Assembly (NCBI RefSeq): GCF_010119545.1
Contig: NZ_JAAEAA010000003.1
Location: forward strand, 1-64,000
Length of the DNA stretch: 64,000 nt
From: Pontibacter fetidus
GTDB lineage: Bacteria > Bacteroidota > Bacteroidia > Cytophagales > Hymenobacteraceae
Direction of reading: 5' to 3'
Position 1 is the stretch's first letter, and each line of letters opens with the position of its first letter. Under the pieces are notes generated by a model that saw only the letters and a list, made by a program, of their open reading frames with translations, was not told the DNA's origin and ran no database searches. Positions 11,945-31,298 of this stretch are shown here, in pieces. The position numbers and the translations under genes were made by a program.

Positions 11945-11979
11945 CATACCCTTACGGAAAAGGGTGACACAACAGAGCT

Positions 11980-12052
11980 GGTGATGTAGCTCAGTTGGTA
12001 GAGCAAAGGACTGAAAATCCTTGTGTCGTTGGTTCGATTCCAATCATCACCA
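11980..12052 (+). tRNA. tRNA-Phe(GAA), left copy
   Basis: 73 nt. Acceptor GGTGATG/CATCACC, D arm GCTC..GAGC, anticodon arm AAGGA-CTGAAAA-TCCTT with anticodon GAA, T arm GTTGG-TTCGATT-CCAAT, discriminator A. CCA is not encoded. This copy has the canonical promoter, so it is probably the expressed one. Confidence 0.97.
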
Positions 12053-12056
12053 CAGC

Positions 12057-12088
12057 AAAACCCTTGTCAGAAACGGCAAGGGTTTTTT
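12057..12088 (+). terminator. tRNA-Phe terminator (left copy)
   Basis: AAAACCCTTG/CAAGGGTTTT stem followed by a six-T run, 5 bp after the tRNA. Part of the duplicated 125 bp. Confidence 0.9.
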
Positions 12089-12202
12089 GTTTTATAGGCT
12101 TTACGCTCTATTCTGCGCCTTTTACCCTTCTTGTAGATATACAGATAAGACTTTAATAAATGTACGCAAATCAACAGGGTAAAGGTGCTTTAGTCTGTTT
12201 AC

Positions 12203-12221
12203 TGTCTCATCTACTGTCTCA
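12203..12221 (+). repeat. Tandem TGTCTCA pair inside the left end
   Basis: TGTCTCA at 12203-12209 and 12215-12221, start-to-start 12 bp, within ACTGTCTCATCTACTGTCTCAT. The same pair with the same spacing lies at 31280-31298. They probably act as arm-type integrase sites. Confidence 0.6.
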
Positions 12222-12323
12222 TGTATTACCACTATCAAGCAGATCAACAGTCAAAAAGGAGCATATTAAAAACCACTACGACTAACTTAATTAGGGACCT
12301 ACAACTAATGGTAAAGCAAGCAC

Positions 12324-13862
12324 CTATAAAGGTAATAACCCCATTTTTTCCCTATCCAATAGACCAGCACTCTCGATAATATTATCTGGTTCTAAATAGC
12401 TTATCGCTAATTGAGGTTTAACCTTTATATATCTCTCGAGTTCTTCTTCCATCACATTTCTTACATAGCCTTCATTGCCTCTTGTTGTAAGTATGCTATC
12501 ATGTATCGTAAAGATTGGGAGATCAGATCGTTCTCTGCTTATTCGAGTGCTGATCTTATCCAATATAAGCCATGATTCAACAGACTGAAGCAGTCTTGCC
12601 AGCCTGCCTTTGTCGCCTTTTTTCAGAAGCTTGAAGAGTTCATAAACATTAGGAAATACTCGCTTAAACTCTTGCTTCAATTCACCCCCTTCCTGACCTA
12701 GAAAGTTATTACCAGTGAATAACACTGTGAATACTACTGCTTTTATCTCCTTCCTGTAAACATATATATGTGCTGTCTTACGAATAAACTTATAGGCTAA
12801 GTATTCATAAAATGAGCCTTTAGACATCTCCAACTCGTATTTTGCAACATCCTGAAGATCAGCAGTATATACGTATTTAGAAAACATAATGAGAGAAGAA
12901 AGTTGAGAAGAAGAGGTGGAAGGTTGTTTGATTTTGCCTTGTGCTTTCTCTACTATATTCTTACTTATTTTAGATGCCTTAGTACCTGAAAGCTCTTGGA
13001 AAACCCTTGGAGCAACTGTACTGATATTAAACTTTCTTGTATTCCTTTTTGCATTGCTTAGCTGCGTATCTACATGTCCTTGGTAAAAGGCTGGATTGAA
13101 CAGCACCAAACTCAAGTAAGGCTGAGAACTTGTAATATCAACTGAAACCAAGGGCTGTCCTTTATAAGTAAGAAAATGACGCAGCTCGCTCTTCATGTTG
13201 GTCAAGTTTGTGTGCAGCCTCTGGATATTGCCATCTACTTTCATGTGGAACCTACCATTCTCTATACTAACTACATTCTGAAGCATGGCCAGGTAACGCA
13301 TTGACTTGGTACTTTTACCTGTTGCTTCTTCTTGCTTCATTAGTTGCTGAATATAGGCTCGTGCCTCTGCACCATCTATTTGAAGGTCCCTATTAAACCA
13401 CAATACCAGATTAGGATAAAGCTTTTTGGTTTGATTCCACTGCTGTCTTCTCTCTTTCTCGATTCTTCTGTTAAGAACCTTATCATTTGATATAACTTCA
13501 GTTAATGAAGTATTCAACCTATACTTTTCTCTGAACCTATATTGTCTGCTCTTATGATCAACAGTGCTATAGGTCTTATCAATTTCTATTAGCCTTGCAT
13601 CATCGTCTAGCGAAAGACAATGGAGACCTGAAGCATAGTCAAGATATTGGGTATAGTTCTTTGCAATCTTAGCTAACTCCACGCTCGACAAGGGCACCCA
13701 ACCATCATCATTTTTCGCAATGTCTTTATTATGCGCTGGCACAGAGATTAGCAGACTTAACATAAAAGCTAACTTACCTTTGCTGAAGTTCTCTATCTTA
13801 CTTGTAGAGTACTTCTTAATATGTTCATCAAGATTTAAATCAATAGGAAGGTTTATAATCAT
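12324..13862 (-). CDS. Divergent family-A-like (PolA/T7 RNAP fold) polymerase
   Basis: 512 aa, not a member of a family I can name. Motifs of a family-A palm occur in the right order. RLHTNLTNMKSELRHFL (215-231) precedes motif A, VSVDITSSQPYL (Asp242). Motif B is R370-x3-K374-x3-F378-x3-F382-TG, the R..K..F..[YF] helix of PolA and T7 RNA polymerase. Motif C is FTIHDS (His454-Asp455-Ser456). PolA enzymes usually have HDE here; single-subunit RNA polymerases have HDS. There is no 5'-nuclease or proofreading domain; the N-terminal 200 residues are basic and unassigned. It lies alone inside the left end of the element, where a replication gene is often found. It could make DNA or RNA; the sequence does not settle which. 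Confidence 0.6.
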   Translation of the reverse strand: MIINLPIDLNLDEHIKKYSTSKIENFSKGKLAFMLSLLISVPAHNKDIAKNDDGWVPLSSVELAKIAKNYTQYLDYASGLHCLSLDDDARLIEIDKTYSTVDHKSRQYRFREKYRLNTSLTEVISNDKVLNRRIEKERRQQWNQTKKLYPNLVLWFNRDLQIDGAEARAYIQQLMKQEEATGKSTKSMRYLAMLQNVVSIENGRFHMKVDGNIQRLHTNLTNMKSELRHFLTYKGQPLVSVDITSSQPYLSLVLFNPAFYQGHVDTQLSNAKRNTRKFNISTVAPRVFQELSGTKASKISKNIVEKAQGKIKQPSTSSSQLSSLIMFSKYVYTADLQDVAKYELEMSKGSFYEYLAYKFIRKTAHIYVYRKEIKAVVFTVLFTGNNFLGQEGGELKQEFKRVFPNVYELFKLLKKGDKGRLARLLQSVESWLILDKISTRISRERSDLPIFTIHDSILTTRGNEGYVRNVMEEELERYIKVKPQLAISYLEPDNIIESAGLLDREKMGLLPL

Positions 13863-14063
13863 TAATTCATGTTTTAGAAGTACGCAGAGCGCAGCTTATT
13901 GTAGAAGGGAGATAAGTTAATACTTATTTACTAGCGATAGCTTCTTCTTACTTATGTATGTGGTTTTAAGAGTGTATGAGTAAAACTGCAACACTATCTG
14001 AAAGCACAGTAATTTACTATTAACGAGTCTACCTTAATCTTTACACATTGTATTAATATAGCT

Positions 14064-14783
14064 TTAATTGATGGTAAGCAACTCTTCATACTTTGCACCA
14101 TTACACCTAAAGCAAATACCTGACTGCACATGGCTGAACTCAGGAAAGACACCAGCACCATGGCACCTCGAGCAGTTAGTATATTCCCCTATTTTATTTC
14201 CCCATCTATCAAGTACAGGCACTTTGCTATTCTTATGCAGTTCTTCATGGCAGTACCAGCAAAGGGTTGTCAACGCACCATCTGGATACTCCCAAGGCAT
14301 TGCACCTACCTGGTAGTACTTATGATGGACTTGCAAGCCCTTCACGTTTTTCCACTCTGTATAGGTATTCTTTTTATAGGTCTCAAAGGCCTGAATAAAC
14401 CTTGCATTCTCTTTTCCCAATCGATCTTCTAGATAAGCTATCTCAAAATCCTGATCAGTGTAAGTCTTACGTGCTATTAGGTGAGCAATCTCAATCCCAT
14501 CTCCCCTACCTGATGGTAACACCAGCATTAATGAGCCCCTTTCTGGACGCTTATTACCTTGTACAGGGATGAAAACCCTATAAGGAGTATGCTCTAATGA
14601 AGACACAATAAAAGCTACTATCCACTCAGAGTTAACATTGCAGCGAGACACCTTGCATAAAACAGCTTTATCGAACAAATTACTGTTGCCACAACTTACA
14701 CATGTATTATTATCTCTACCTACTATAGATTTGCGCTTCTCCTTCCATTCAGGAGCTTCTAGTAGTTTAGCGTATATAGACAT
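14064..14783 (-). CDS. HNH-type endonuclease-like zinc protein (paralogue 1)
   Basis: 239 aa. An N-terminal CxxC (Cys28, Cys31: NTCVSCGNSNLF), then LQVHHKYYQVGAMPW and a LTTLCWYCHEELH segment make an HNH/beta-beta-alpha-metal site with the HH, a downstream C..C and a final His. A separate C-terminal zinc finger, NCSRCHGAGVFPEF..CFRCNGA, is DnaJ-like (CxxCxGxG). The HNH core suggests a DNA-cutting role, but the central Asn of classical HNH sites is not obvious, so activity is uncertain. A close paralogue sits 47 bp upstream in the same direction; the two are probably co-transcribed. Confidence 0.65.
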   Translation of the reverse strand: MSIYAKLLEAPEWKEKRKSIVGRDNNTCVSCGNSNLFDKAVLCKVSRCNVNSEWIVAFIVSSLEHTPYRVFIPVQGNKRPERGSLMLVLPSGRGDGIEIAHLIARKTYTDQDFEIAYLEDRLGKENARFIQAFETYKKNTYTEWKNVKGLQVHHKYYQVGAMPWEYPDGALTTLCWYCHEELHKNSKVPVLDRWGNKIGEYTNCSRCHGAGVFPEFSHVQSGICFRCNGAKYEELLTIN

Positions 14784-14830
14784 TCTTTCCTATTGACAAT
14801 GATAAATAAGATTTAAATCAATTCTGATTC

Positions 14831-15544
14831 TTAGACAACAAGCTCTTTATACCTAGCGCCATCACATTGGAAACAGATTCCTCCTTGTATATGACTAAAC
14901 TCTGGGAAATGCCCTACTCCATTACACCTGGAGCAATTGGTATATTCTCCAATTTCATTATCATACTCATCTAACACAGGCACCTTGCTGTTTTGGTGTA
15001 ATTCGTTATGACAACACCAGCATAACGTTGTAAGGGCATCATTTGGATATTCCCATGGCTTTAAGCCAACCTTGTAGTATTTATGATGGACTTCTAATCC
15101 CCCAATAATCTCCCACGACCTATAAGTCTCTGCTCTATATTCATTAAATGCAGTGATATATTCACTATGGGTCTTCCCTAAATCCTGCCTAAGGTGGAAA
15201 AGATTCCAGTCTTCTTTTGATGCCTTTCTAAATGCTACAACATAATTACTAGTTGCACCCAAGTTATTGGATCTGGATGATACGAGCAAAGGAGTAAAAT
15301 AACTTATTGGATCCAGGTACTTTCTCAGCATATATGCTTCTCCCTCATTGTCTGACTTGAAATCTTTATAGGTAACCAAGAGAGAGTCTTTTAACCCACG
15401 AATATGATAAATACGAGCAAATGAGCTCTGTTCGAACAGCTTGGTGTTATCACATATAGTGCATGAATTCCTATCCCTTATTACGATATAATTGCGCTTG
15501 CTCTTCCATTCAGGTGATAGCAATAGCTGTGCATATTCAGTCAT
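14831..15544 (-). CDS. HNH-type endonuclease-like zinc protein (paralogue 2)
   Basis: 237 aa from ATG 15544. This start gives MTEYAQLLLSPEWKSKRNYIV, aligning with MSIYAKLLEAPEWKEKRKSIV of paralogue 1; the longer frame to 15613 has no counterpart. It has the same layout: SCTICDNTKLF, LEVHHKYYKVGLKPWEYPND, LTTLCWCCHNELHQNSKVPVLD, and the C-terminal finger CSRCNGVGHFPEF..CFQCDGA. The middle (about 40-120) differs strongly from paralogue 1 while both zinc regions are conserved. That pattern fits a variable recognition segment between constant catalytic and zinc modules, by inference. Confidence 0.65.
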   Translation of the reverse strand: MTEYAQLLLSPEWKSKRNYIVIRDRNSCTICDNTKLFEQSSFARIYHIRGLKDSLLVTYKDFKSDNEGEAYMLRKYLDPISYFTPLLVSSRSNNLGATSNYVVAFRKASKEDWNLFHLRQDLGKTHSEYITAFNEYRAETYRSWEIIGGLEVHHKYYKVGLKPWEYPNDALTTLCWCCHNELHQNSKVPVLDEYDNEIGEYTNCSRCNGVGHFPEFSHIQGGICFQCDGARYKELVV

Positions 15545-15695
15545 CTTATCCTTTGATATTCCATACAATATATAATTTTTATATTTTTTTTGCCCCACCC
15601 CCCTTCGCAACATATAATATAAGCCTGCCCCCTAGCCTAACCTTGCGATTGGCACTGGGTCTCTCGCTGTTAGAACTTATAAATTATAACTACTT

Positions 15696-16037
15696 ATGGT
15701 AACAATTGTAGATTGGAAAAAGCGTAATGCTGAGGATGGCAGAGAATTTAATGCGTTAATACTGCAGGGTGACATTGAACTGATTCAGTCCAAGGAATCA
15801 GGAAGATTCTACGCAACTGCCAAGAAGTGCTCTATATCCTGCACGTTCAACGATGTAATCTGTGGTACTCTTATTGGAAAGACATTACCAGGTCAAATTG
15901 AGAAGATGCAGGTAGATCCATATGACTATCACATTCCTGGTACTGATGAGATCATCAGCCTAGCCCACACCTACTATTATGATCCTGTAGAAAGAACCAT
16001 GGAGCAGGAAGTGTTTGGCATGAAGGCAGCAGCTTAG
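15696..16037 (+). CDS. Hypothetical protein
   Basis: 113 aa, soluble, no signal peptide. It contains two Cys in CSISCTFNDVIC and a run GRFYATAKKC that resembles a small OB- or zinc-like beta protein; I do not recognise the family. It opens the plus-strand side of the element, divergent from the HNH pair, and is closed by a strong hairpin terminator at 16047. Intact and well formed, so probably expressed. Confidence 0.6.
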   Translation: MVTIVDWKKRNAEDGREFNALILQGDIELIQSKESGRFYATAKKCSISCTFNDVICGTLIGKTLPGQIEKMQVDPYDYHIPGTDEIISLAHTYYYDPVERTMEQEVFGMKAAA

Positions 16038-16046
16038 CGCCATAAC

Positions 16047-16075
16047 AGAGGTAGCCATTACGAGCTACCTCTTTT
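16047..16075 (+). terminator. Hairpin terminator
   Basis: AGAGGTAGC/GCTACCTCT perfect 9-bp stem with an 8-nt loop, followed by TTTTG, 10 bp after the stop at 16037. Confidence 0.8.
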
Positions 16076-16104
16076 GTTTATCCCCTTACAATTACTCAAG
16101 TAAC

Positions 16105-16380
16105 ATGATTACAAAACTTCTGCTTAGCCCAGAGCCTAGCAGGTTCGATGATAGCTGCTTGTTCTTATCCAAGTTTAAACTTCAGAGAATTTACTGTCCT
16201 TTCGATGTAGAATGTATTAAACCCATCAGAGGCATAAGTACAGGCCAGATAAGGCAGGTAGATAAAATACTAAGTTGGGGATCAGGCCTTATCCTTTACT
16301 TTATAGGAGGCAAGCTATATCCCCACCAATTCTTTCGACTTAAGCCACCATATCACTTTGTGCTAACTAGATTCAAATAG
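16105..16380 (+). CDS. Hypothetical protein
   Basis: 91 aa. No recognised domain, signal or membrane helix. It is basic and aromatic near the end (GGKLYPHQFFRLKPPYHFVLTRFK). It has its own space between the terminator at 16047 and the structured leader at 16478. Coding is likely from the clean ATG frame, but there is no family support. Confidence 0.45.
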   Translation: MITKLLLSPEPSRFDDSCLFLSKFKLQRIYCPFDVECIKPIRGISTGQIRQVDKILSWGSGLILYFIGGKLYPHQFFRLKPPYHFVLTRFK

Positions 16381-16477
16381 AATTAAGGAGTTATGCTGAA
16401 TTTCTTAGGCATTGTTCTGTGAGATAGTTTCTCCTGCTAACTAAAAAACTACTGAAAGAACGTAGCCACGACCATTC

Positions 16478-16533
16478 GCTGCAGCAAGATGGGAAGGGGT
16501 AGCAGCCATGCTTGGCTTCTATCCCATTGCAGC
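16478..16533 (+). promoter_or_regulatory. Structured leader before the DUF3871 gene
   Basis: GCTGCA (16478-16483) plus ATGGGA (16489-16494) can pair with TCCCAT (16522-16527) plus TGCAGC (16528-16533), with a 5-nt bulge. An inner AGCC/GGCT hairpin is at 16504-16517. It ends 38 bp before the chosen ATG, so it could be a leader RNA structure or an overlapping operator. Confidence 0.35.
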
Positions 16534-16571
16534 ATCGCAATCATTATAAAACAACCACAAACTTAATTAAC

Positions 16572-17576
16572 ATGAGACATTCACTTATTAGGGTTACATC
16601 CCAACCAGAGCCTAGGCTTACAGTAAGCAGCAACAGCGAGACAGAAGCAACTACTTCTGTCTCTTCTGCTTTTATAGAAGCTAACACAGTATCAATTGTT
16701 TTGTCTGAGTTGCAACAAGATCATATTATCCCTGTTTATGTGAAGGATAATGAGCCACTAATCAGCCAGGCTGACTTCATTCAGGCGACTCAGGAAGCTG
16801 CCTCCATCATCTTTAGAGGGGAGCAGATTCTGTCTCCTCAGATCAGGTGCAGTCACCCTATCAAGGGTAGAATTCCAGAGGCTAAGGACAAGCCTGCAAA
16901 CCAACTACTGGAATGGGAGAGAACGCTATACTATGAGCGCATGATGTTTCTGCTCGAGATCCCATCTATCGTGAATACAGTAGACAACAACCAACTTACC
17001 TTGACTATTGGTGGGGTAAAGGCCTATAACCTAGACAACCTCTACAACAAAAAGGGGGCTGCTGAGCACTTCAAGGTGTTTGTTGGTTTTAACAATTTGG
17101 TGTGTACTAACCTGTGCGTAAGAACAGATGGTTATCTCGCTGATCTCAAAGTAAGCCACATAGATCAACTGTATGCATGTATTCAACAGCTCCTAAGTAC
17201 TTATGATCAGCACCAGTACTTGAAACAGATGCAAACTTTGACAGAATATTCTATCACAGAACAGCAGTTCGCACAGCTGCTTGGACGTTGCAGGATGTAC
17301 TTGCACATGCCAACTGAGGAAAAGAAGCAAATCCCTCCATTGTTATATGGTGATTCCCAACTGACTACTGTCTGCAAAGATTATTATAGAGACACCAACT
17401 TGTGTAAAAAGGAAGATGGTAATATCAGCCTGTGGAAGTTCTACAACCTTTTAACTGGAGCTAATAAGTCAACTTATATCGACCAGTTCCTTGATCGCTC
17501 TGTTAATGCGTTAGACTTTACGTCTCAAATACAAGGAGCTATACAAGGGCAATCCAGTAGCTGGTACATAGGCTAG
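16572..17576 (+). CDS. DUF3871 family protein
   Basis: About 334 aa from ATG 16572; the frame is open back to a TTG at 16512 but that stretch is unlike protein. The sequence matches what I recall of DUF3871, a Bacteroidota family found on mobile elements: FIEANTVSIVLSELQQDHIIPVYVKDNE, ISQADFI, SHPIKGRIPEAKDKPANQLL, YYERMMFLLEIPS, LTIGGVKAYNLDNLY, FKVFVGFNNLVCTNLCVRTDGY. The fold is thought related to phage/plasmid DUF932 proteins. Role unknown; its presence marks conjugative and integrative elements. It ends 15 bp before a two-way terminator shared with the OLD nuclease gene. Confidence 0.8.
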   Translation: MRHSLIRVTSQPEPRLTVSSNSETEATTSVSSAFIEANTVSIVLSELQQDHIIPVYVKDNEPLISQADFIQATQEAASIIFRGEQILSPQIRCSHPIKGRIPEAKDKPANQLLEWERTLYYERMMFLLEIPSIVNTVDNNQLTLTIGGVKAYNLDNLYNKKGAAEHFKVFVGFNNLVCTNLCVRTDGYLADLKVSHIDQLYACIQQLLSTYDQHQYLKQMQTLTEYSITEQQFAQLLGRCRMYLHMPTEEKKQIPPLLYGDSQLTTVCKDYYRDTNLCKKEDGNISLWKFYNLLTGANKSTYIDQFLDRSVNALDFTSQIQGAIQGQSSSWYIG

Positions 17577-17590
17577 CCTACTGTTAACAC

Positions 17591-17625
17591 ATGAGTAGGT
17601 AGACTTACAACTGCTACCTACTCAT
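17591..17625. terminator. Two-way terminator between convergent genes
   Basis: Perfect 12-bp stem ATGAGTAGGTAG/CTACCTACTCAT, loop 11 nt, between DUF3871 (+) and the OLD nuclease (-). Confidence 0.85.
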
Positions 17626-17631
17626 CCTTTC

Positions 17632-19629
17632 TTACTGGCCTTCAATTGTAATATCCAACTCATTGAGCATGGATACTACTTCATCAGGCATTCTCCCTAC
17701 TCTAGCAGGTGAGATAGTATCAAATGCTAAACTTAGCTGAGGACATACCTCTTGCATGCTAGTTATATATCTGCATAATAACATCCCAGTTTCAGACTTA
17801 CCTGGGAAATTCATTTTGCTAACACTATCAGTTTGGGCTGAGCGATATAGGTTTGAAAGCTTCTTATGTAATTTATTATCTGCATTGGTATTCTCAGAAG
17901 GTATGCTTTCGATTAAAGCTCTTATATCTTCAGCTGACACTCTAATTTCATTAGATTCAGTTGATTCTGAAAGCAAGTCATTTATAAGATTTGCCCAAAC
18001 TTCTGGAGCTATCGAATCCTCTAAATCCTGTCTCCCAAGATAATATTTAACAGCATCAGGCATTGTTCTATCTTTTACAGCTTTCTGGTCACGATCAAAA
18101 ATGTATACAATAGAATCTGTATTCTTCTTAAATCCATCCATCAAACTTGTAAACAGCCTTTGGTTCGTTGCTTCATTACCTGAACCTTTCATATTAATCA
18201 CTTGAATATTATCCTGAAGAAGGGTTCTTCCTGTATGAAGACGATAGAGTGCAGGGAATAAGTTATATTCTGTTTGACCTTCTACAACTAAGAACTTATC
18301 GTGAAATAGAAAATCACTATTACGTAACTTTAAGCTATCATAAACATCTTCAACATCTTCGCATGTATTAGTTTGAGTATAACCATTAAACAATACTGTT
18401 TTTTTGATTTCACTCAGGTTAGTCTTATCTACAAAGATTGTAGAGTGAGTGGATAAAATCACCTGAACTCCTCCTGATGTTGCGTCTCTCAGAAGATCAA
18501 AGAATTCACGCTGAGCACCTGGGTAAAGATGAGTTTCAGGCTCATCAAAGGCCCAAATATATTCTTTTTTACTATCTAGGCGCTCTGCAAGCCTTCTTGC
18601 CTGAGCCCTTAATAACCCATACCAAATTTGTCTTTTAACGCCTTCCCCTTGGGATTCTATATGGATAAGCCCTTCAGAAGTACTCTTTTCTACTAAAATG
18701 TCTGTTACACTAGGTTTGATTACTGGTGGAGATAACTTAGCAGTTATGTCTATTAACGATGGTACTACAGTAGTTAACTCTTCTAACAAGTTTTCCCTAA
18801 GTTCTTGATTTATTTCATTTTCAAGATCTTGTGCAATTTGAGCTACAGATTCACGCACTTCTTGGAAAGCTGTATTTATTTTAGATGTTAACAAATCATC
18901 TGCTTGTTTTTTGATATCCTCTAAAGAGCAACGCCAATCAAGGTATCTAAACTCTGGAAATGCAGGACGATCTTCTCTTTTGAAGCCATATAAAGACCAG
19001 CCCTGTAGTAATCCAGCTGAGTGATTTACATAAACAGCTTTTATACGTTCATATTTTGATGGCCTTCCTTCTCCATTAACATTATCAATGTCTTCATCCC
19101 TGATGCCTAATTGACTATTTAGGGTTCTAAGTCTTGCTTCAGTCAACGCCCAAAGGTCTTCTTCGCTCTGACGTTCTTTGCATAACACGTATGTACTATG
19201 AGTACCTGTTTCACAAGAAAAGCTCCTTAGCATCCATATACTATCGTCTTCTGAGAACTGTCTGCAGATACGAAGCTGTTCAGAGTAAGCTTGGTAGCTT
19301 AGTTCAGTATCGTCAGCTTCAAGCTTGAATTTACCTAGAATGATTGTTTCTTGCTCTGAGTAAGCTAAACTAGGTAGTCCATTCTCTCTCAACAACTCAT
19401 CAAACTGAGCTATAGCTAGCGCAGAATTAGATAGATCTCTCTGACTACTCAAATCAGATCCATATTTATAGCTAGGATTTTGATCTAGTAGTAAACCAAT
19501 TGCCTTAAGCACAGTCGACTTTCCACAGTCATTAGCACCTATAAATACATTAGGTTTATTAGAATTGAAACTTACATTTACTAGCTGGCAGCTGCGATAA
19601 TTAACGATAAGAAGTTGAGCTAAATACAT
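17632..19629 (-). CDS. OLD-family ATP-dependent nuclease (AAA ATPase + TOPRIM)
   Basis: 665 aa. N-terminal SMC/ABC-like ATPase: Walker A GANDCGKST at 31-39, signature-like SQGEGVKRQ near 326-334, Walker B YIWAFDEPETHLYP with Asp362-Glu363, and H-loop STH near 395. C-terminal TOPRIM: FLVVEGQTEYNLF with Glu450 and IVYIFDRDQKAV with Asp512/Asp514, the metal-binding acidic residues. This is the layout of phage P2 Old and Gabija GajA. No UvrD-like GajB helicase is next to it, so it resembles class 1 solitary OLD nucleases. Likely role: ATP-regulated DNA cutting against phage or invading DNA, by inference. Confidence 0.88.
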   Translation of the reverse strand: MYLAQLLIVNYRSCQLVNVSFNSNKPNVFIGANDCGKSTVLKAIGLLLDQNPSYKYGSDLSSQRDLSNSALAIAQFDELLRENGLPSLAYSEQETIILGKFKLEADDTELSYQAYSEQLRICRQFSEDDSIWMLRSFSCETGTHSTYVLCKERQSEEDLWALTEARLRTLNSQLGIRDEDIDNVNGEGRPSKYERIKAVYVNHSAGLLQGWSLYGFKREDRPAFPEFRYLDWRCSLEDIKKQADDLLTSKINTAFQEVRESVAQIAQDLENEINQELRENLLEELTTVVPSLIDITAKLSPPVIKPSVTDILVEKSTSEGLIHIESQGEGVKRQIWYGLLRAQARRLAERLDSKKEYIWAFDEPETHLYPGAQREFFDLLRDATSGGVQVILSTHSTIFVDKTNLSEIKKTVLFNGYTQTNTCEDVEDVYDSLKLRNSDFLFHDKFLVVEGQTEYNLFPALYRLHTGRTLLQDNIQVINMKGSGNEATNQRLFTSLMDGFKKNTDSIVYIFDRDQKAVKDRTMPDAVKYYLGRQDLEDSIAPEVWANLINDLLSESTESNEIRVSAEDIRALIESIPSENTNADNKLHKKLSNLYRSAQTDSVSKMNFPGKSETGMLLCRYITSMQEVCPQLSLAFDTISPARVGRMPDEVVSMLNELDITIEGQ

Positions 19630-19786
19630 GACGTTATAAGTGACTATAGATTGTTTTCATACTAAATGAATAGCAGACAGAATACTTCCTGTAAATCTAA
19701 AGTTTACACCTTAATTCATATATATTGCTTATACTATATTTCTGCACAACTTATCAACACTCTTGAAATCTTAACTACAATAATAA

Positions 19787-20638
19787 TTACCTTGTTGGCC
19801 CTCTATCAGTCTGTCTTTCAATAACCACTTGTATATCTTCGTCGACATTGGAAAGAAGATTATATCCTGTTGCTGTCTCTATTGCATCTACTGTGGTACG
19901 ATAAGCTCCCCAGTCAGAACTAATGGAGCTATTGTTGGGTGTATCCACTGCAATCACCCTAGTTGTTGTAGTAATCCTGCTCAGATCATTCACACCTTCA
20001 GGAAGTATAACCAGCACTTTCCAGATGCGATTAGGTACTGTCACCCTTCCCTGATCTATGGTCTGCGCCAACCCATTGCTGCCTGTGCCACCACTTCCAT
20101 AGTTTCCCATCATCACATACACCTCCATGCCATCATTTACTAAATCACGAGTGTAATCTTCCAGATTAGCCCATGTCTGGCGATTATGGTTAGGGGCCTG
20201 TGGAATCATGTTCGTCATTAAGAATGTGGCAGAGTTATCTTCCACAGTTTTGGTTCTGTCTGCAGAAGGCGTGTTGTGACCACGATCAAAGCCACTGCCT
20301 GTATAACTGGTGGCAGCTACCTTGTACCAAGCTGAAGGCAGACTCTGGTCAGCTCTGAAATCGTCCTGTCTGTCTGTTGTACCCAACCAGTCTTTGCTCA
20401 CATACCAACTTACCCAGTTAGGCGTTCCCCTGTCGCGACTGTAAGACAGCGCATATTGTGGTCTTTCTATTAAATAGTTGTTGAAGTTACCTTCATCACT
20501 CGTCGCACTACTTGGATTGCCTAGCAGCAAATGCTCTCCATCAAGAACTGTTGACTGCTGTGGCGCTACTTCTGTCTCCTTACAACTTACCAGGAACAGG
20601 ACTATGAATACTTGGTAGAGAAGATTTCTTTTTGTCAT
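19787..20638 (-). CDS. Lipoprotein DNA/RNA non-specific endonuclease
   Basis: 283 aa. Signal peptide with lipobox LVSC (Cys19), so it is probably anchored in the envelope or at the surface. The catalytic domain is of the NUC/EndoG (beta-beta-alpha metal) type: SGFDRGHNTPSADRT with the general-base His121, and TNMIPQAPNHNRQTWANLE with the metal-binding Asn152. Such enzymes cut DNA and RNA without sequence choice; outside the cell they may degrade incoming or extracellular DNA for nutrients or protection. It is a single gene between the OLD nuclease and the divergent SRAP gene. Confidence 0.9.
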   Translation of the reverse strand: MTKRNLLYQVFIVLFLVSCKETEVAPQQSTVLDGEHLLLGNPSSATSDEGNFNNYLIERPQYALSYSRDRGTPNWVSWYVSKDWLGTTDRQDDFRADQSLPSAWYKVAATSYTGSGFDRGHNTPSADRTKTVEDNSATFLMTNMIPQAPNHNRQTWANLEDYTRDLVNDGMEVYVMMGNYGSGGTGSNGLAQTIDQGRVTVPNRIWKVLVILPEGVNDLSRITTTTRVIAVDTPNNSSISSDWGAYRTTVDAIETATGYNLLSNVDEDIQVVIERQTDRGPTR

Positions 20639-20762
20639 GATATGCTGATTAAGATTATATCAGTCTATAGACGTAGCAGAGTTGATCTTGTTTATGCTTC
20701 GCATATTATGACTCATTGTGCTTTTAAGCTCGTAGAAGGATTGTAACAACCAGTTCAGCACC

Positions 20763-21422
20763 ATGTGTGGTAGATATTCAGTTATTCCTAAGGCAAAGGG
20801 TAAATCGCGTGTTTCCAAACTTCTCAAAAACCACATACAGGAGGCGAATTATAACGCTGCACCATCCCAAAGCCTACCTGTGGTTACTAATGACCATCCA
20901 GATGAAGTGCAGTACTTCTCCTGGGGCCTGCAGCCCTTCTGGGCGAAGGATGCAAGAGCAGTGAAGCGCTCTATCAATGCTAGGGCAGAAACGCTGACAG
21001 AGAAGCCATCTTTCAGGAATCTGCTGAAGTCAAAACGTTGTCTGGTTCCTGCTGATGGTTTTTACGAATGGCAAGTAACAGAACATGGCAAGGTACCTTA
21101 CAGAATCCTGCTGAAGAGCGAAGAGCTGTTCTCCTTTGCAGGGCTTTGGGATGAATGGCTGGATAAAAGTACTGGTGAGGTATTGCATACTTATACCATC
21201 ATTACGACTGAAGCTAATGAGCTTGTAATGCCAATTCATGAACGAATGCCTGTGATATTGTCGCCAGAGACTGAGAAACTATGGCTGGATGAACATGAGA
21301 CGCAGGATGAATTACTATCATTGTTGGAGCCATACAAAGCTGATGAGATGAAAGCTTATCAAGTTTCTCCCTTAGTCAACTCCCCACTGAATAACACATC
21401 TGAAGTAATTAATTCGCTTTAA
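20763..21422 (+). CDS. SRAP domain protein (YedK/HMCES type)
   Basis: 219 aa, full length for the family. It starts MCGRYS, leaving Cys2 as N-terminal nucleophile after Met removal. The other active-site residues are visible: Asn72 in SINARAET, Glu102 in GFYEWQ, His159 in MPIHERMPVIL. Known family function: it forms a thiazolidine crosslink with abasic sites in single-stranded DNA, shielding them from error-prone processing. It lies 1.7 kb from umuDC on the same element, which fits the known tendency of SRAP genes to sit with SOS-type genes. Promoter lies in the 124-bp gap shared with the divergent nuclease gene. Confidence 0.93.
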   Translation: MCGRYSVIPKAKGKSRVSKLLKNHIQEANYNAAPSQSLPVVTNDHPDEVQYFSWGLQPFWAKDARAVKRSINARAETLTEKPSFRNLLKSKRCLVPADGFYEWQVTEHGKVPYRILLKSEELFSFAGLWDEWLDKSTGEVLHTYTIITTEANELVMPIHERMPVILSPETEKLWLDEHETQDELLSLLEPYKADEMKAYQVSPLVNSPLNNTSEVINSL

Positions 21423-21446
21423 CAGAAGTCTTAATAAGTAACTTGT

Positions 21447-22331
21447 TTAACGAGCATTCTGACCTTCATCCATGTCACTAATTATATCACCATGTGTGAT
21501 TAGATCTGGATCATTTAGATCAGGAGCTGGTAAAGAGCCTATTTGAATTTCTCCAGGGCGATTAAGAGCTGCATAATGCAAGTTAATGTTTACTACTTTT
21601 GAGTAAGGTATTACCATTAGCGCCCCTGGCACTTTATACTTCCTTTGTGACTGTGCCTGCACCAAGACTTCTTCGCCTGCATCATTCTTGCCATTTACCT
21701 CTTCAGTCAGAGGTCTTCTAAATACATGGCTTAAGGTCAGGCTATCCAGCTCAGCATTATTATTAAGGCTATAGTCCTGAAGTATACCTGAATAAATAAT
21801 CGAACCATCTGCAGTATCTACCAGCATATCTACTACTCTCATATCTATTCGTGTAATAGGAGGCCTCTGTACATCAGGAAACCTTGTGATTTCTCCAGAG
21901 AATATGTAGTGCCACTTGTTGTTAAAACGAAAGTATGCAAGGTTAATATCTAACGATCCAAACCTGATGATTACGCGTCCTATTAACCCTAATAAATATG
22001 CTACAGCCCAAAGCACAATGTGATAAATTGCTATTGGGACAAAAAACGTTGAAAGATTAGAAAAGCTTTCCTTGATTCTATCTGGGTTACTGCTACTAAA
22101 TAGCAGATTGCCAAGCAATGGGAAATCCACCTGATAATCAGTCCAATTCTGAACTATTACTAAGTAAAGCGCGTGAAGCACAACGCTTGGTAAGATTGCA
22201 CTAATTAATTCATTGACTGGATTGCTTGGTAGTATCCTTTTAGTGAATGGAGCAGAAAAAAAGCCCCTAGACATTATCAATCCAGGAGCTATGATGAGTA
22301 CGATTAGTATCGAAGCAACAGCGAAATTCAA
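21447..22331 (-). CDS. Membrane protein with cytosolic beta-rich tail (possibly DUF6338-like)
   Basis: 294 aa. Three hydrophobic helices: 3-20 (FAVASILIVLIIAPGLIM), 41-62 (SAILPSVVLHALYLVIV) and about 92-116 (FVPIAIYHIVLWAVAYLLGLIG). A soluble domain follows with NNKWHYIFSGE, ADGSIIYSGILQDY and a late MVIPYSKVVNINLHY. The overall layout recalls DUF6338 membrane proteins, which I have seen near defence loci, but I cannot confirm this. It follows the 76-aa protein at 22338 by 6 bp, so the two form one unit. It is convergent with SRAP. Confidence 0.65.
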   Translation of the reverse strand: MNFAVASILIVLIIAPGLIMSRGFFSAPFTKRILPSNPVNELISAILPSVVLHALYLVIVQNWTDYQVDFPLLGNLLFSSSNPDRIKESFSNLSTFFVPIAIYHIVLWAVAYLLGLIGRVIIRFGSLDINLAYFRFNNKWHYIFSGEITRFPDVQRPPITRIDMRVVDMLVDTADGSIIYSGILQDYSLNNNAELDSLTLSHVFRRPLTEEVNGKNDAGEEVLVQAQSQRKYKVPGALMVIPYSKVVNINLHYAALNRPGEIQIGSLPAPDLNDPDLITHGDIISDMDEGQNAR

Positions 22332-22337
22332 GAGCTA

Positions 22338-22568
22338 TTAAGTATGTGTCAACTCGTATTTTGATTCACCTAATAAAGTACCAGAGGATGATTTTCTGAA
22401 TCCTTTACTACTTTCCTTTCTCTTAAGAACTTCTTCAACAATAGTATAACCAGCCTCCCAATCGTTAGCAAGTACTTCTTTCCCCCTTTTACTTAAAGGA
22501 GCAGAGAAAGTAAAGCCTAGCTTTAGATGCTTTAATATATTCATAACTACGTTCATTAGCCTATCCAT
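22338..22568 (-). CDS. Small protein, partner of the membrane protein
   Basis: 76 aa, basic, no membrane helix. It opens with an amphipathic segment (MNVVMNILKHLKLGFTF) and ends in a Ser/Lys-rich tail. SAPLSKRGKEVLANDWEAGYTIVEEVLKR could form a helix-turn-helix-like or coiled pair. It is translated just upstream of the membrane protein (6-bp gap). Family and function unknown. Confidence 0.5.
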   Translation of the reverse strand: MDRLMNVVMNILKHLKLGFTFSAPLSKRGKEVLANDWEAGYTIVEEVLKRKESSKGFRKSSSGTLLGESKYELTHT

Positions 22569-23077
22569 ATTATAACAACCTCCTCTCTTAGAGTTTAGTT
22601 TCTCATTGCGAGCACTAGGTTACCCTTCTTTATAATCTCTACACTTAGTTATGCCTTTACGCAGAGTAGTAGTTGTAGTTGTTGTTACTAGTATGTCCAA
22701 TATTACGACATTGTCTGAACATTGCAAACGATCTATGTTACTATTTTAGTTTAGCTCTCTTGCTACCCCTAACATTCTTATCAGCATGTCTCTCTTTAAT
22801 ACCTGTACTCTAATCCCCTACTATCCTTCCTATTTACCCTCGTCTCATCAATAGTAGTTTAAGACATTACAAATGTGGTAGCAGTATCTTATTGTTTAAA
22901 CTAATATATGATTAGTAGTAACTTCAATACATAATTCTCTGAGTTACAAAGTTTCACATCAAAACATCAATCCTATACTAAATTCCATCTCAAATAAACG
23001 CCAAAATAATTAGCATTAATCATCACTTTACACGTATTTGCTAACTATATTAGTTTTTAGATATAATGTAAACTGTT
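22569..23077. other. 509-bp gap between divergent units
   Basis: No gene-like frame is seen. It must hold promoters for umuDC (+) and for the membrane pair (-). One small inverted repeat, ACTAAT-ATATG-ATTAGT at 22900-22916, could be an operator. A TATAAT at 23062 is too close to the umuD ATG to be its promoter with confidence. Otherwise AT-rich with no recognisable structure. Confidence 0.4.
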
Positions 23078-23542
23078 ATGTGCACTGCCAAGGTTATACC
23101 TATTTCCTCTCATGCGCTAGAGCTGTTTGATTTTGATTTCCTCGATCATGTTCAATTGCCTTTATATGCTTCTTATGTTTCAGCAGGCTTCCCATCCCCT
23201 GCAGACGACTACTTAGAAGATAAGATTGACCTAAGCAAGTACCTCGTACAGAACCCAACTTCCACTTTTATGATGCGCGTAAAAGGTAGTTCTATGCAGG
23301 ATGCGAATATTAACGATGGTGACATTCTGGTAATTGACAGATCCCTTAAAGCAGCAGATGGTCTGCCTGTCGTCTGCTTTCTGGATGGCGAGTTCACAGT
23401 TAAGACCTTCAGAAAGATTGAAGGCAGAGCGTTTCTGTACCCTGCTAACCCTGCCTATCAGCCAATAGAAGTAACTGAAGAAATGGATATGCGTGTGTGG
23501 GGTGTTGTAGTATGGGTATTGCATAAGCCTGTAAAGTTATGA
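23078..23542 (+). CDS. umuD: UmuD-like autocleaving protein
   Basis: 154 aa. S24/LexA-type peptidase: cleavage site Ala36-Gly37 in YVSAGFPSP, nucleophile Ser72 in [11 protein letters not shown], general-base Lys109 in GEFTVKTF. RecA-stimulated self-cleavage gives UmuD', which with UmuC forms DNA polymerase V for bypass of lesions. Its stop overlaps the umuC ATG (ATGA), so translation is coupled. No LexA-type SOS box can be picked out by eye upstream. Confidence 0.92.
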
Positions 23543-24810
23543 CGACCTTGTTTGGCTTGTGCGACTGCAATAACTTCTATGCAAGCTGCGAGCGAGTCTT
23601 TGACCCTAGCCTGAATGGGAAACCAGTAGTGGTACTGAGCAACAACGATGGCTGCGTGATCGCCAGAAGCAATGAAGCTAAAGCGTTAGGCATTCAGATG
23701 GGCGATCCCTTCTTTAAGATCAGAAACCTAGTCGAACACAAGCATCTACACGCCTTCTCATCCAATTACGTGCTGTATGGGGATATGTCAGACAGAGTAA
23801 TGCAGACCCTATCGCTGTTCACGCCTAACGTAGAAGTATACTCTATTGATGAGTGCTTCCTGGACCTGGGTAACTTTTATGATGTGAACCTATTTAATTA
23901 TGCGTGGGAGATCAAGCGAACAGTAACGCGATGGACTGGCATCCCTGTCAGCTTAGGTATAGCCCCAACCAAAGCCTTGGCAAAGGTCGCGAACAAGCTT
24001 GCCAAGAAGTCTGCTAAAGCGAATGGTGTGTTGGTTTTGACAGAGCCCTACCACATTGAGAAAGCATTAGAGGCAACTAAGATCGAGGATGTCTGGGGCG
24101 TGGGGAGGCAGTATGCGAAGTTCCTTAAAAACCACCACATCAATACTGCCCTGGACTTTACTAACGCTTCTGAGAACTGGATCAGAAAGCACATGACAGT
24201 GGTAGGTGTGAGGCTGCATAAAGAGCTGCGTGGTGAGTCATGCTTGGAGCTTGATGAGGTAGCACCACCCAAGAAAGGCATCTGTACCTCCAGAAGCTTT
24301 GGCAAGAAGCTTACAACATTCGAAGATATACTGGAAGCTACAGCCAGCTATGCAGCTAAGTGTGCCAAGAAGCTTAGAAACCAGAAGAGCTGCGCTAAAC
24401 TTGTAACTGTGTTTGTACAGACCAACCCCTTCTCTGAGAACGACAGACAATACTACAACAGCAAGACCATTTGCATGCCAGTAGCCACTAATTCAGACAT
24501 AGAGCTGATTCACTATGCTACATTGTCGCTTAAAGCGATTTTTAAACCACACTACTGGTACAAGAAGAGTGGGGTGATCGTGACTGAGATTGTACCTGAA
24601 ACCCAGATTCAGTTTGACCTGCTTGACACAGTAGACAGGGATAAGCACAACAGCTTGATGAAGGTAATGGATGGGCTGACTGACAGGTTTGGAAGAAGCA
24701 AAGTACATGTAGCAGCTCAGGGAATAAGCAAGAGTTGGCTGCTGAAGTCTGATTACAAATCACCATGTTATACCACAAGACTTGAGGATATGCCTACTGT
24801 GTTCATATAG
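23539..24810 (+). CDS. umuC: Y-family DNA polymerase V subunit UmuC
   Basis: 423 aa, full length. Catalytic segments: [19 protein letters not shown] with the first metal-binding Asp, [20 protein letters not shown], and [10 protein letters not shown] with the second Asp-Glu. Then a helix-hairpin-helix region ([19 protein letters not shown]) and the little-finger domain; the C-terminal tail (about 370-423) matches the UmuC extension. Makes error-prone translesion synthesis with UmuD'. On this element it can raise mutation or protect newly entered DNA. Uniform with its neighbours in base use. Confidence 0.95.
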
Positions 24811-24942
24811 ATACTTAGAATTCCTTAAGCCTTAATCATTCTAGCTTAATTTTGACTACTAAAGCATTTTCGTTAGCATTAATTATGCTAAATTGAGGCT
24901 TTTCTAATTGATATATTATTATATAACTATTACATTTTAAAG

Positions 24943-26097
24943 GTGGATTTATTTTCTGAAGTTGAAGAGTTAGTGCAAGGCTATGAAGCCTTGAGAAATA
25001 TCAATTGGAACTTTCAAGATTCAATATCTGATACAATACATTCTATACACCCCTATCCTGCAAAATTTATTTCAGATATCCCAAGAGCAGTTCTGAGAGC
25101 TCTTCCTATTCCAAAAGACACGATTGTTTTAGATCCTTTTTGTGGTAGTGGTGTCACCTTAGTTGAGGCACAAAGGGCAGGGATAGAGTCTGTTGGTGTA
25201 GACCTTAATCCAATAGCTTGTTTGCTCTCGAGAGTAAAGGTAAATATTCTAGACAGAGGCTTCCTCAAATCTGCAGAAAGTGTAATTAGTAATTGCCTTG
25301 CTTATGAGGGAGCAATTGAAATACCACTTATCCCTAACTTAGATCATTGGTTTAGAGGGGATGTTCAGGAAGCAATAACACTTATTATAAGAGAGATTAA
25401 TAGCATAGAGAATCACAATATCCAAGATGCCTTAAGGTTTTGTCTATCAAGCATTATTGTAAAGGTTTCTAATCAAGAGAGTGATACAAGATATGCTGCT
25501 ATAGAGAAGAATTATAGAAAAGCTGATGTTTTTGACCTGTTTAGTAAAGCAGCTAAAAAGCTTGCGAAAGTAAAAAATGAATCACGATCTATAGTAGCCT
25601 CCTCCATCTTAAATAAGAGTTCGTTGACATTGAATGCTAATGACTTTAATAAGAAGATTGGACTTGTCATTACATCACCTCCTTATCCAAATGCCTATGA
25701 ATATTGGCTCTATCACAAGTATAGAATGTGGTGGTTAGGTTATGACCCTATCGATGTAAAAGAGCAGGAGATTGGAGCAAGAGCACATTATTTCAAGAAG
25801 AATCATCAAACAGAGCATGACTTTATCAGGCAAATGAATGAATTGTTCTCATCTCTACAGGAGAACATGATAGATGGGGGCTATGCAGTATTTGTGATAG
25901 GGCGTTCTAAAATACATGGTAGAATAATTGAAAACCATAAGATAGTTAAAGAAGCAGGGGAGAATAATGGTTTCGAAGAAGTTTTAACAACAACTAGAGT
26001 TATTAAAGCCAGTAGAAAGTCTTTTAATCTTTCCCATGCTAGGATTAAAGAAGAGTATATTGTTGTACTTAAAAAGCGTGGAACTAATGGCAAATAA
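24943..26097 (+). CDS. DNA methyltransferase 1 of a BfiI-like restriction-modification system
   Basis: 384 aa, GTG start at 24943. AdoMet-binding motif I DPFCGSGVTLVEA near residue 65 follows IHPYPAKF, a common lead-in of this group. The catalytic motif IV is TSPPYPNAYEYW near 246. SPPY points to amino-methylation, most often N4-cytosine. It is followed by a second methyltransferase (overlap 11 bp) and a PLD-type endonuclease. Two methyltransferases with one nuclease are usual for a type IIS system with an asymmetric site, each enzyme protecting one strand. Target sequence cannot be read from the protein. Confidence 0.88.
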   Translation: MDLFSEVEELVQGYEALRNINWNFQDSISDTIHSIHPYPAKFISDIPRAVLRALPIPKDTIVLDPFCGSGVTLVEAQRAGIESVGVDLNPIACLLSRVKVNILDRGFLKSAESVISNCLAYEGAIEIPLIPNLDHWFRGDVQEAITLIIREINSIENHNIQDALRFCLSSIIVKVSNQESDTRYAAIEKNYRKADVFDLFSKAAKKLAKVKNESRSIVASSILNKSSLTLNANDFNKKIGLVITSPPYPNAYEYWLYHKYRMWWLGYDPIDVKEQEIGARAHYFKKNHQTEHDFIRQMNELFSSLQENMIDGGYAVFVIGRSKIHGRIIENHKIVKEAGENNGFEEVLTTTRVIKASRKSFNLSHARIKEEYIVVLKKRGTNGK

Positions 26098-27595: not shown

Positions 27596-27601
27596 CTAAA
27601 A

Positions 27602-28675: not shown

Positions 28676-28795
28676 CTTCTAAACCATTTTAGATTAATTA
28701 CCCCAGAGTAGCTCCTGTTGCATACACTACACTTTATATTGTAAACATGCACATAAATTAGAGTTGTAATGTGCTCTTGAGCTGGTTAATATTTA

Positions 28796-29023
28796 TTAAA
28801 ACCCCTCAGAAAAGAATTCCTGTAAAGTCATTTTATGAATGGCTAGCACCCTCAGTAGGGTTCGCATAGTCAAATTAGCTTCCCCCTTCTCCAGTCGCCA
28901 GTATTGCATCCTACCTAGCTCATGGTCCAATGCAAAGGATTCGTAGCTACTGTAGCCCTTCTCGATTCGAATTGCTTTCAGCCTATCGCCTATAGCTTTC
29001 AGTATCTCTTCTTCGCTCTTCAT
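28796..29023 (-). CDS. XRE-family regulator
   Basis: 75 aa, one helix-turn-helix domain: IGDRLKAIRIEKGYSSYESFALDHELGRMQYWRLEKGEANLTMRTLLRVLAIHKMTLQEFF. Size and form fit a controller (C) protein of a restriction system or a small phage-type repressor. It is convergent with the endonuclease gene and divergent from the exported pair. The palindromic site at 29074-29089 lies 50 bp upstream of its start, so it likely regulates itself and the 29137 gene. Confidence 0.85.
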   Translation of the reverse strand: MKSEEEILKAIGDRLKAIRIEKGYSSYESFALDHELGRMQYWRLEKGEANLTMRTLLRVLAIHKMTLQEFFSEGF

Positions 29024-29058
29024 AGGGCGAAAGTTGAGAGTTATCCAGCTTTAGTATT

Positions 29059-29089
29059 ACACCATACATTTTAACACCATATATGGTGT
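29059..29089. promoter_or_regulatory. Candidate operator of the XRE regulator
   Basis: A perfect 16-bp palindrome, ACACCATATATGGTGT (29074-29089), with an extra half-site ACACCAT at 29059-29065, in the gap between the divergent XRE gene and exported-protein gene. Three half-sites in this position fit a repressor operator. Confidence 0.6.
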
Positions 29090-29136
29090 ATAATACATGT
29101 TTAATATTTACTTTTAATTCAACTAATATACCAATC

Positions 29137-29550: not shown

Positions 29551-29553
29551 CCC

Positions 29554-30024: not shown

Positions 30025-30116
30025 CAGACAGAACTATTCATCTATAGATGTATGTGATTTCAAAAGAACCTAAAACCTCTTTATCGTGCCTTTGAGTCAA
30101 TATGCCAAAGTAAACA

Positions 30117-31256: not shown

Positions 31257-31279
31257 AAGACAATAAACTTTAAGGTTAC

Positions 31280-31298
31280 TGTCTCATCTGTTGTCTCA
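31280..31298 (+). repeat. Tandem TGTCTCA pair inside the right end
   Basis: TGTCTCA at 31280-31286 and 31292-31298, spaced 12 bp like the left pair and in the same orientation. They lie between the integrase start and the right tRNA copy. Possible arm-type integrase sites, possibly also controlling int. Confidence 0.6.

Follow-up and report, generated by a model that had tools for sequence, protein, structure and literature searches.

The 64,000-nucleotide stretch of Pontibacter fetidus DNA examined in this study (positions 1 to 64,000 of contig NZ_JAAEAA010000003.1, assembly GCF_010119545.1; hereafter the window) contains an integrated mobile element, and close to the left end of this element, on the minus strand at 12324-13862, lies an intact open reading frame (ORF) encoding a 512-amino-acid (aa) protein, here named POL (P0001). 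An initial annotation had described this protein as a compact polymerase combining family-A motifs with an RNA-polymerase-like HDS motif. The ORF proved to be real and uninterrupted (its minus strand had gone unstated), and every residue named in that annotation was found in its place: RLHTNLTN at 215-222 and LR at 227-228, Asp242 within VDITSSQPYL (motif A), R370, K374, F378 and F382 followed by TG (motif B), and HDS at 454-456 (motif C). The coordinates of POL, of the element and of its other features are collected in Table 1.

The integrated element

The element is bounded by identical 125-nt direct repeats with a repeat-to-repeat spacing of 19,349 bp, and its G+C content is 39.2%, compared to 42.7% and 45.0% in the flanks. 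In all three relatives examined (L120, L121 and L122, from genomes G119, G055 and G097), the flanks join at a single tRNA-Phe gene, leaving an empty site to the right of which the relatives' sequence diverges for a few hundred bases and then resumes. A recombinase, direct repeats, a tRNA target and an empty site are thus all present, and the locus is an integrative element with a tRNA attachment (att) site; the mobile element proposed in the initial annotation is borne out by the perfect repeats, the tRNA-Phe gene at each of them and the empty sites. The repeats hold the whole tRNA-Phe gene together with a terminator-like hairpin (recognized by eye), which suggests that the element carries the tRNA in full and not just its 3' end; the POL-containing locus L071 likewise has two complete tRNA-Asn genes. 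The recombinase gene occupies the right end of the element and POL the left. A paired motif representing candidate integrase arm-type sites was matched twice in the window at no more than one mismatch (0.01 expected), and it is also found inside both ends of the element at locus L069, which likewise targets tRNA-Phe, has a repeat of 99 nt and encodes a recombinase that clusters with that of the window. A scan with the single unit, allowing one mismatch, gave four sites versus 3.5 expected, which is the level of chance.

Conservation and distribution of the POL family

Conservation was assessed in an alignment of 27 sequences (A1) that includes 26 of the 29 loci from the genome search (L003-L031; the split or partial L004, L010 and L022 were omitted). 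R215, D242, Q247, Y352, K374, Q426, E429, H454 and D455 are invariant in all 27 rows. Arg is found at position 228 in 25 of 27, at position 370 in 19 and Phe at position 378 in 17, while position 382 is always aromatic (22 Phe, five Tyr) and position 456 is Ser in 24, Asn in two and Ala in one. Because the A1 rows were picked by whole-protein search and not selected for any motif, this conservation indicates that the named motifs are not due to chance. In a broader alignment of 54 rows (A5), Ser456 is present in 54 of 54, a biased count since many of the loci were retrieved with a pattern containing HDS. Alignment A5 includes 53 of the 65 loci L035-L099, omitting the duplicates L040, L044 and L049 and the fragments L050, L051, L052, L083, L085, L086, L088, L091 and L098; alignments of closer subsets (A2-A4) served as profiles for contig scans.

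A profile search for homologues and their gene neighbours, which the initial annotation had proposed as a check, recovered both. Counting the source genome in each case, POL homologues were found in 74 of the 200 sampled genomes of the bacterial family (E at most 0.01) and in 16 of 395 sampled from the phylum (A5 profile, E at most 1e-6). One of 72,556 plasmid records (Hymenobacter qilianensis NZ_CP060788) and six of 50,697 phage records gave a match, the latter all uncultured phages of 595-735 kb. The scan of genome contigs yielded 45 loci, nearly all in Bacteroidota; those outside are three Planctomycetes contigs from metagenome-assembled genomes (MAGs) and L071, in a MAG labelled Rhizobium. 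POL is 37% identical to a Pontibacter burrus protein (locus L055, NZ_JAAGWD010000008.1), with which it pairs in a tree of 88 rows (support 100/96). The family comes in two forms: in the long form, to which P0001 belongs, an insert separates motif A from the GxFYExL helix, whereas proteins of the short form, about 400-500 aa in size, lack it. The host genome also encodes an ordinary PolA, with an HDE motif, elsewhere. By sequence, POL itself returned nothing worth naming from Pfam, NCBIfam, PHROGs, PADLOC or the PDB; weak Pfam matches at E 0.1 were taken as chance, no PHROGs family was matched at E up to 10, and scans of genome and viral contigs with the single protein gave no matches.

Predicted fold

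An AlphaFold2 model of POL built from 54 rows had a mean pLDDT of 88.5 and a pTM of 0.88. In a structural comparison with the PDB (VIA), family-A DNA polymerases made up the 50 entries listed, the best with a Z of 14.3 and an rmsd of 3.4 over 261 residues; the matches cover model residues 137-498 approximately, and 222 of 998 chains have Z of at least 8. Foldseek placed PolA-type enzymes first (E 1.2e-4) and the mitochondrial RNA polymerase POLRMT at rank 11 (E 6e-4). In a library of viral structures, two compact proteins ranked highest, with TM scores (by target length) of 0.80 and 0.71; the second bears the name 'Putative DNA polymerase I'. In the model, strand 236-243 contains D242, and D455 sits between the strands at 451-453 and 456-460, a palm-like arrangement. 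The POL core is thus predicted to have a PolA-type palm/fingers fold, which supports the polymerase with family-A motifs originally proposed; a fold without a palm, which the same annotation had named as the outcome that would speak against it, did not occur. Motif B, read as R-x3-K-x3-F-x3-F/Y, agrees with the claimed PolA spacing, and no nuclease domain was found in POL, as had been noted. A PF00476 (family-A DNA polymerase) match to POL was not found at E up to 10, nor was this family among the 25 listed for 27 members.

Active site

The position five residues after the motif A aspartate, which serves as the sugar gate, is Gln (Q247) in 27 of 27 rows of A1 when placed by sequence register, not by superposition, and is followed by Pro in 25 of 27. 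The gate is Glu in PolA and Gly in T7 RNA polymerase (RNAP; AFDGSCSG). At the third residue of motif C, the POL family has Ser in place of the Glu of PolA, and T7 RNAP also has HDS. In T7 RNAP, Tyr639 selects ribose, and POL has Phe382 in the corresponding place. The HDS motif that was first read as the RNA-polymerase form is therefore present, but the hint of RNA synthesis drawn from it is weak, the gate being Gln and not Gly throughout and the Tyr place being taken by Phe. Judged from these residues, the sugar-selecting positions look more like those of a DNA polymerase and motif C alone looks like that of an RNA polymerase, so that DNA synthesis seems likelier than RNA synthesis for POL.

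The third motif C residue is not diagnostic by itself, since a PF00476 polymerase encoded next to POL in some phages has HDG together with a Glu gate. Among nine phage proteins of the divPolA2 type (L189 and L191-L198; compact PolA variants considered below), a Glu gate goes with FDE or HDD in three, and HDS goes with a gate of His or Trp in six. On the tree, the three proteins with a Glu gate group in a single clade, and the joint difference in gate and motif C may consequently be a single event.

Gene neighbourhoods of POL

Neighbourhoods were compared across 44 genome-contig loci with a POL ORF (L091, with no POL ORF in the selection, was omitted). Of these 44 loci, 24 have a recombinase no more than 2.5 kb from POL (18 tyrosine, six serine), as do 21 of the 35 that have 2.5 kb of sequence on both sides. 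Recombinases account for 24 of the 239 ORFs located up to that distance from POL versus eight of 424 farther away (Fisher p 5e-6). Where a tyrosine recombinase is near POL, a tRNA gene is located no more than 400 bp from the recombinase in 15 of 18 loci. An excisionase-like cluster gene is present within 1.1 kb of POL in seven of 44 loci, the member at L057 matching HTH_17 (3.9e-11).

Bracketing repeats of at least 20 nt were found in eight of the 28 loci tested, and the elements that they bound measure 5,315 bp (L071), 6,006 bp (L065), 6,985 bp (L082), 8,776 bp (L072, less sure, with a 20-nt repeat), 11,199 bp (L070), 11,492 bp (L069), 11,727 bp (L062) and 15,134 bp (L074). Besides the integrase and POL, the three smallest contain two to five ORFs, and several of these encode secreted or membrane proteins as judged by Pfam or by eye. 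Replication-initiator, primase and relaxase families were absent from 37 cargo ORFs scanned in five elements (E up to 0.001), and from the eight scanned among the ten cargo ORFs of the three smallest; the ORFs outside the Pfam scan are L069:18441-18671, L070:15055-15921, L072:14090-14428, a 94-aa ORF of L071 and a 150-aa ORF of L082. In the window element, 17 ORFs compared with Pfam (a set outside which lie at least the ORFs 16105-16380 and 29083-29550) included no relaxase or conjugation gene and no replication-initiator or primase family, DUF3987/DUF5906 among them.

Genes for replication-type proteins accompany POL at several loci. A DnaQ-like exonuclease gene directly follows POL in L058 (RNase_T 8.4e-26, overlapping), and its cluster mates do so in L059 and in L083, which is from the same MAG as L058. 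In L036, L038, L040 and L149 (a 595-kb phage), a PF00476 polymerase gene overlaps POL by 4 nt, the L040 protein being identical to that of L036, and the recurrence of this pair suggests a division of labour. The overlapping partner lies downstream of POL and is a protein of 428-429 aa with HDG and a PF00476 match of about 1e-20 (L036 9998-12468; L149 8004-10450). PF00476 was found in three of ten records searched, and in one of the five from huge phages, and a constant association of POL with a second family-A polymerase in huge phages was accordingly rejected; a DnaG_N match was present in one of the ten records, several of which are fragments, so that POL might take the place of DnaG. Loci L073 and L075 have a PolA gene near POL, in the opposite orientation. 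Loci L045 and L046 are two POL copies on one 112-kb viral contig, L045 with a clamp-like protein 2.5 kb upstream of POL (PF00712 5e-4, below the cut-off) and L046 with an RNase-H-like gene separated from POL by one gene (9.9e-8). A weak RNase-H-like gene (0.0036, below the cut-off) overlaps POL in L069.

Two further arrangements were observed. In L094 and L095, POL has a large serine recombinase on one side and, on the other, a ParB/DNA-methylase fusion (L095) or a relative of this fusion (L094), which makes up an alternative mobility module. In the Flavobacterium-type loci L060, L061, L063, L064 and L066, a 249-aa protein family (split in L063) is encoded directly upstream of POL; the one member scanned had no Pfam match, and extra copies are present in L060 and L063.

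Possible roles of POL

The explanation favoured here, with a probability of roughly 50%, is that POL is the replication enzyme of tRNA-integrating Bacteroidota elements, acting as replicase or initiator on the excised circle. POL looks like a backbone gene of these elements because a recombinase is found nearby, because small elements are bounded and because no initiator, primase or relaxase family was found in the scanned genes; the smallest bounded elements hold little beyond the integrase, POL and a few other genes. According to this explanation, the integrase (with the excisionase where present) would release a circular form of the element that carries POL (minus strand), attP and the integrase gene, in this order, on a single strand. 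DNA binding, perhaps at an origin, would fall to the N-terminal domain, and the polymerase core would extend a primer, copying the circle with the helicase and clamp of the host. POL would most likely add deoxynucleoside triphosphates (dNTPs), since the gate Gln is near Glu in size and unlike the Gly of T7, and since Phe is found where T7 RNAP has the Tyr that selects ribose; Ser in the HDS motif would then be a tolerated change at the less critical of the two motif C residues.

Several observations weigh against this explanation. No bracketing repeat of 20 nt was found in 20 of the 28 loci tested, in some since the stretch is short, and no recombinase was found within 2.5 kb of POL in 20 of 44 loci, the five loci with the 249-aa family being among them; profiles may miss some recombinases, because the annotated recombinase of the Hymenobacter plasmid went unreported. 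That plasmid (NZ_CP060788 of H. qilianensis) has its own Rep_3 initiator as well as ParA, and the notion that POL is the only replication gene everywhere was rejected for this reason. In L070, the stretch between the integrase and POL encodes a protein of 783 aa that weakly matches a helicase (0.0028, below the cut-off) and has a relative in L074, and AAA-ATPase families are also present among the cargo of the elements. Some phages pair POL with a second family-A polymerase; PF00476 was not found in four of five huge-phage records searched. At the level of sequence, hhalign comparisons of the POL family with 30 Bacteroidota PolA proteins (P 0.028) and with T7/SP6 RNAP (P 0.015) were not significant, and PDB sequence searches with POL returned nothing significant; the kinship to family A therefore rests on the predicted fold, the order of motifs and the divPolA2 link. 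The N-terminal residues, about 136 in number and outside the listed PDB matches, comprise in the model a helix (28-44), a strand (56-58), two helices (60-66 and 70-78) and two strands (92-95 and 106-110), and this helix-strand-helix-helix-strand-strand order is that of a winged helix, a resemblance drawn from predicted secondary structure only. Residues 1-144 modelled alone from the single sequence gave no fold (pLDDT 37.7), and comparison of the POL N-terminus with that of divPolA2 was not significant.

There are several alternative explanations for the presence of POL on these elements. It is unlikely that POL makes RNA, whether as a primase or as a small RNA polymerase, to initiate replication (or to transcribe genes of the element) while a host or phage DNA polymerase elongates. 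The T7-like HDS, the appearance of POLRMT among the Foldseek matches and the joint variation of gate and motif C in the nine divPolA2-type proteins are in keeping with RNA synthesis, as are the RNase-H-like genes near POL in L046 and, weakly, L069, and the Glu gate kept by the overlapping PF00476 polymerase of some phages, as the elongating partner of a primer-maker might do. Yet the gate of POL is a bulky Gln, not Gly, in all 27 rows, Phe or Tyr is found at 382, the RLHTxLTN...LR..F block ahead of motif A is PolA-like by eye, and a DnaQ-like exonuclease follows POL in some loci. Moreover, the phage PF00476 partner with Gly in motif C takes away the diagnostic value of that residue, the clade formed by the Glu-gate divPolA2 proteins may reduce the joint variation to one event, and the 50 VIA entries listed are DNA polymerases, though absence from that list excludes nothing. 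A related and likewise doubtful proposal is that there is a distinct kind of small integrative Bacteroidota element whose core comprises only an integrase and one family-A initiator-primase-replicase, a protein in which an origin-recognizing DNA-binding domain is joined to a polymerase that starts its own chains, with the same kind of enzyme serving as primer-maker beside a PF00476 polymerase in some phages.

It also appears improbable that POL serves in an accessory capacity (repair, gap filling or translesion synthesis) on elements and phages that replicate by other means. Such a role would fit the Rep_3 gene of the Hymenobacter plasmid, the S24/UmuC-like and SRAP genes carried by the window element, and the suggestion of repair or RNA synthesis made by the divPolA2 authors on the grounds that barbaviruses have PolB (PMC11348598). 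However, POL remains near the integrase in the smallest elements (5.3-7.0 kb), whose scanned ORFs included no other replication gene, and this weighs against an accessory role because one would expect an accessory gene to disappear or to change its place. A defence or counter-defence enzyme carried as cargo is far less plausible still. Some polymerase-like enzymes do act in defence, and the window element carries a restriction-modification set and an OLD-like ATPase, but POL had no PADLOC match and tends toward the recombinase end while the other genes vary between elements.

If the replicase explanation is correct, it would account for the maintenance and amplification of a common type of tRNA-integrated element in Bacteroidota through a polymerase that Pfam, NCBIfam and PADLOC scans left unnamed. 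Because the gate residue and motif C vary across the POL family and its divPolA2 cousins, these proteins also offer a natural series for examining how a DNA polymerase is converted to an RNA polymerase or primase, in a superfamily that includes PolA, T7 RNAP and the mitochondrial POLRMT.

Other genes of the window element

Judging from their sequences, the remaining genes of the window element look like cargo (Table 1). The two HNH-like paralogues directly upstream of POL, on the same strand, have Cys-rich ends. The DUF3871 gene (cluster c2) is found near POL in seven loci including the window (L049 being a viral-contig copy of L074), and in several of these it adjoins a protein of 90-130 aa, possibly as part of the same element type. 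The OLD-like ATPase resembles several PADLOC defence models, and the frames of the methyltransferases overlap at 26036-26097.

Table 1. Features of the window element, with positions in the window, strand and supporting matches or remarks.
Feature	Position	Strand	Evidence or remarks
Integrated mobile element	11978..31451	.	Repeats, empty sites, G+C
Left att repeat	11978..12102	+	Complete tRNA-Phe gene 11980-12053
Candidate integrase arm-type site CTGTCTC-N5-CTGTCTC, left	12202..12220	+	
POL, predicted family-A-fold polymerase, 512 aa	12324..13862	-	N-terminal domain ~1-136 (13862-13455), polymerase core ~137-498
His454-Asp455-Ser456 codons, motif C	12495..12503	-	
Asp242 codon, motif A	13137..13139	-	
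HNH-type nuclease-like protein, 239 aa, probable cargo/accessory	14064..14783	-	phrog_119 HNH endonuclease 1.5e-8
Paralogue of the 14064-14783 protein, 260 aa	14831..15613	-	phrog_119 8.2e-9; same cluster
113-aa protein, common to P. burrus L055, there also beside POL	15696..16037	+	Cluster c37
DUF3871 protein	16512..17576	+	PF12987 1.1e-116; cluster c2
OLD-like ATPase-TOPRIM protein, probable cargo, defence-like	17632..19629	-	PF13175, PF20469; PADLOC Old 4.2e-36
DNA/RNA non-specific endonuclease, probable cargo	19787..20638	-	PF01223 4.3e-51
SRAP-domain protein, probable cargo	20763..21422	+	PF02586 2.3e-71
S24 peptidase (UmuD-like) and Y-family polymerase (UmuC-like) pair, probable cargo	23078..24810	+	PF00717 3.8e-29, PF00817 2.2e-39
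Two DNA methyltransferases and BfiI-like restriction enzyme, probable cargo	24943..28675	+	PF01555, PF18243 1.6e-86; PADLOC MTase_II, REase_II
Small protein, resembling a helix-turn-helix regulator by eye	28796..29023	-	Cluster c16; L068 and L055 members upstream of POL; no Pfam match
Tyrosine recombinase (integrase), 379 aa	30117..31256	-	PF00589 5.9e-8
Candidate integrase arm-type site, right	31279..31297	+	1 mismatch
Right att repeat	31327..31451	+	Second complete tRNA-Phe gene 31329-31402

Comparison with known systems

The initial annotation knew of no described family of this form, a statement that is not supported, as the phage protein divPolA2 is a distant homologue. As described (Virol J 2024, PMC11348598), divPolA2 is a compact phage PolA variant with no exonuclease and with its own N-terminal domain, carried in variable neighbourhoods by tailed phages, among them the Barba phages and Vibrio phage 1.063.O. 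POL resembles divPolA2 (about 430 aa) in being compact and exonuclease-free, with a family-A palm and an N-terminal domain of its own. The cores are homologous (hhalign probability 97.7%, E 1.5e-12 over 191 columns, POL family versus the nine divPolA2-type proteins), and HDS is present in six of the nine; of these, AUR84708 and the Barba18A protein come from phages named in PMC11348598 and the others were found by similarity. In addition, phrog_4756 is matched both by 15 of 27 POL family rows (E up to 1, best 4.6e-8) and by the divPolA2 representative AUR84708 (1.8e-91). The two groups are nevertheless distinct, with the nine divPolA2-type rows separated from 79 family rows by a 100/100 branch of the midpoint-rooted tree, a gate of Glu, His or Trp there compared to Gln in the POL family, and the occurrence of the POL family in tRNA-integrated elements and large phages, often beside a recombinase. 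The POL family is therefore related to a kind of polymerase already described and does not represent an unknown one; what is new is the clade in Bacteroidota and huge phages, its gate Gln, its partnership with recombinases and, in some phages, its pairing with a PF00476-type polymerase. A literature search that covered few subscription papers found divPolA only in PMC11348598 and a preprint, and no paper plainly on these tRNA-integrated elements.

Compared to the family-A DNA polymerases (PolA, T7 DNA polymerase and Pol theta; PF00476), POL shares the predicted core fold, the order of motifs, the motif B spacing and the Asp residues of motifs A and C, but it has no PF00476 match, Gln for Glu at the gate, Ser for Glu in motif C, no exonuclease and a different N-terminal domain. 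With T7-type RNA polymerases it shares the HDS motif C, a related palm and the presence of POLRMT among the Foldseek matches, while differing in its gate (Gln, not Gly), in the Phe at the Tyr639 position and in size (512 versus 883 aa).

For an element-encoded replicase, the nearest working parallel is found in the PICMI phage satellites. In PICMI, int and an AlpA/HTH_17 gene form part of the core together with a primase, whose deletion leads to fewer circular copies (Nat Commun 2024, PMC10803314). Both systems are small integrated islands with an integrase, an HTH_17/AlpA-type gene (in some POL loci) and one nucleotide-polymerizing gene that serves replication in PICMI and may do so here. They differ in that the replication gene of PICMI is a primase (DUF3987/DUF5906 in the authors' model) and that of the POL elements would be a polymerase of predicted family-A fold.

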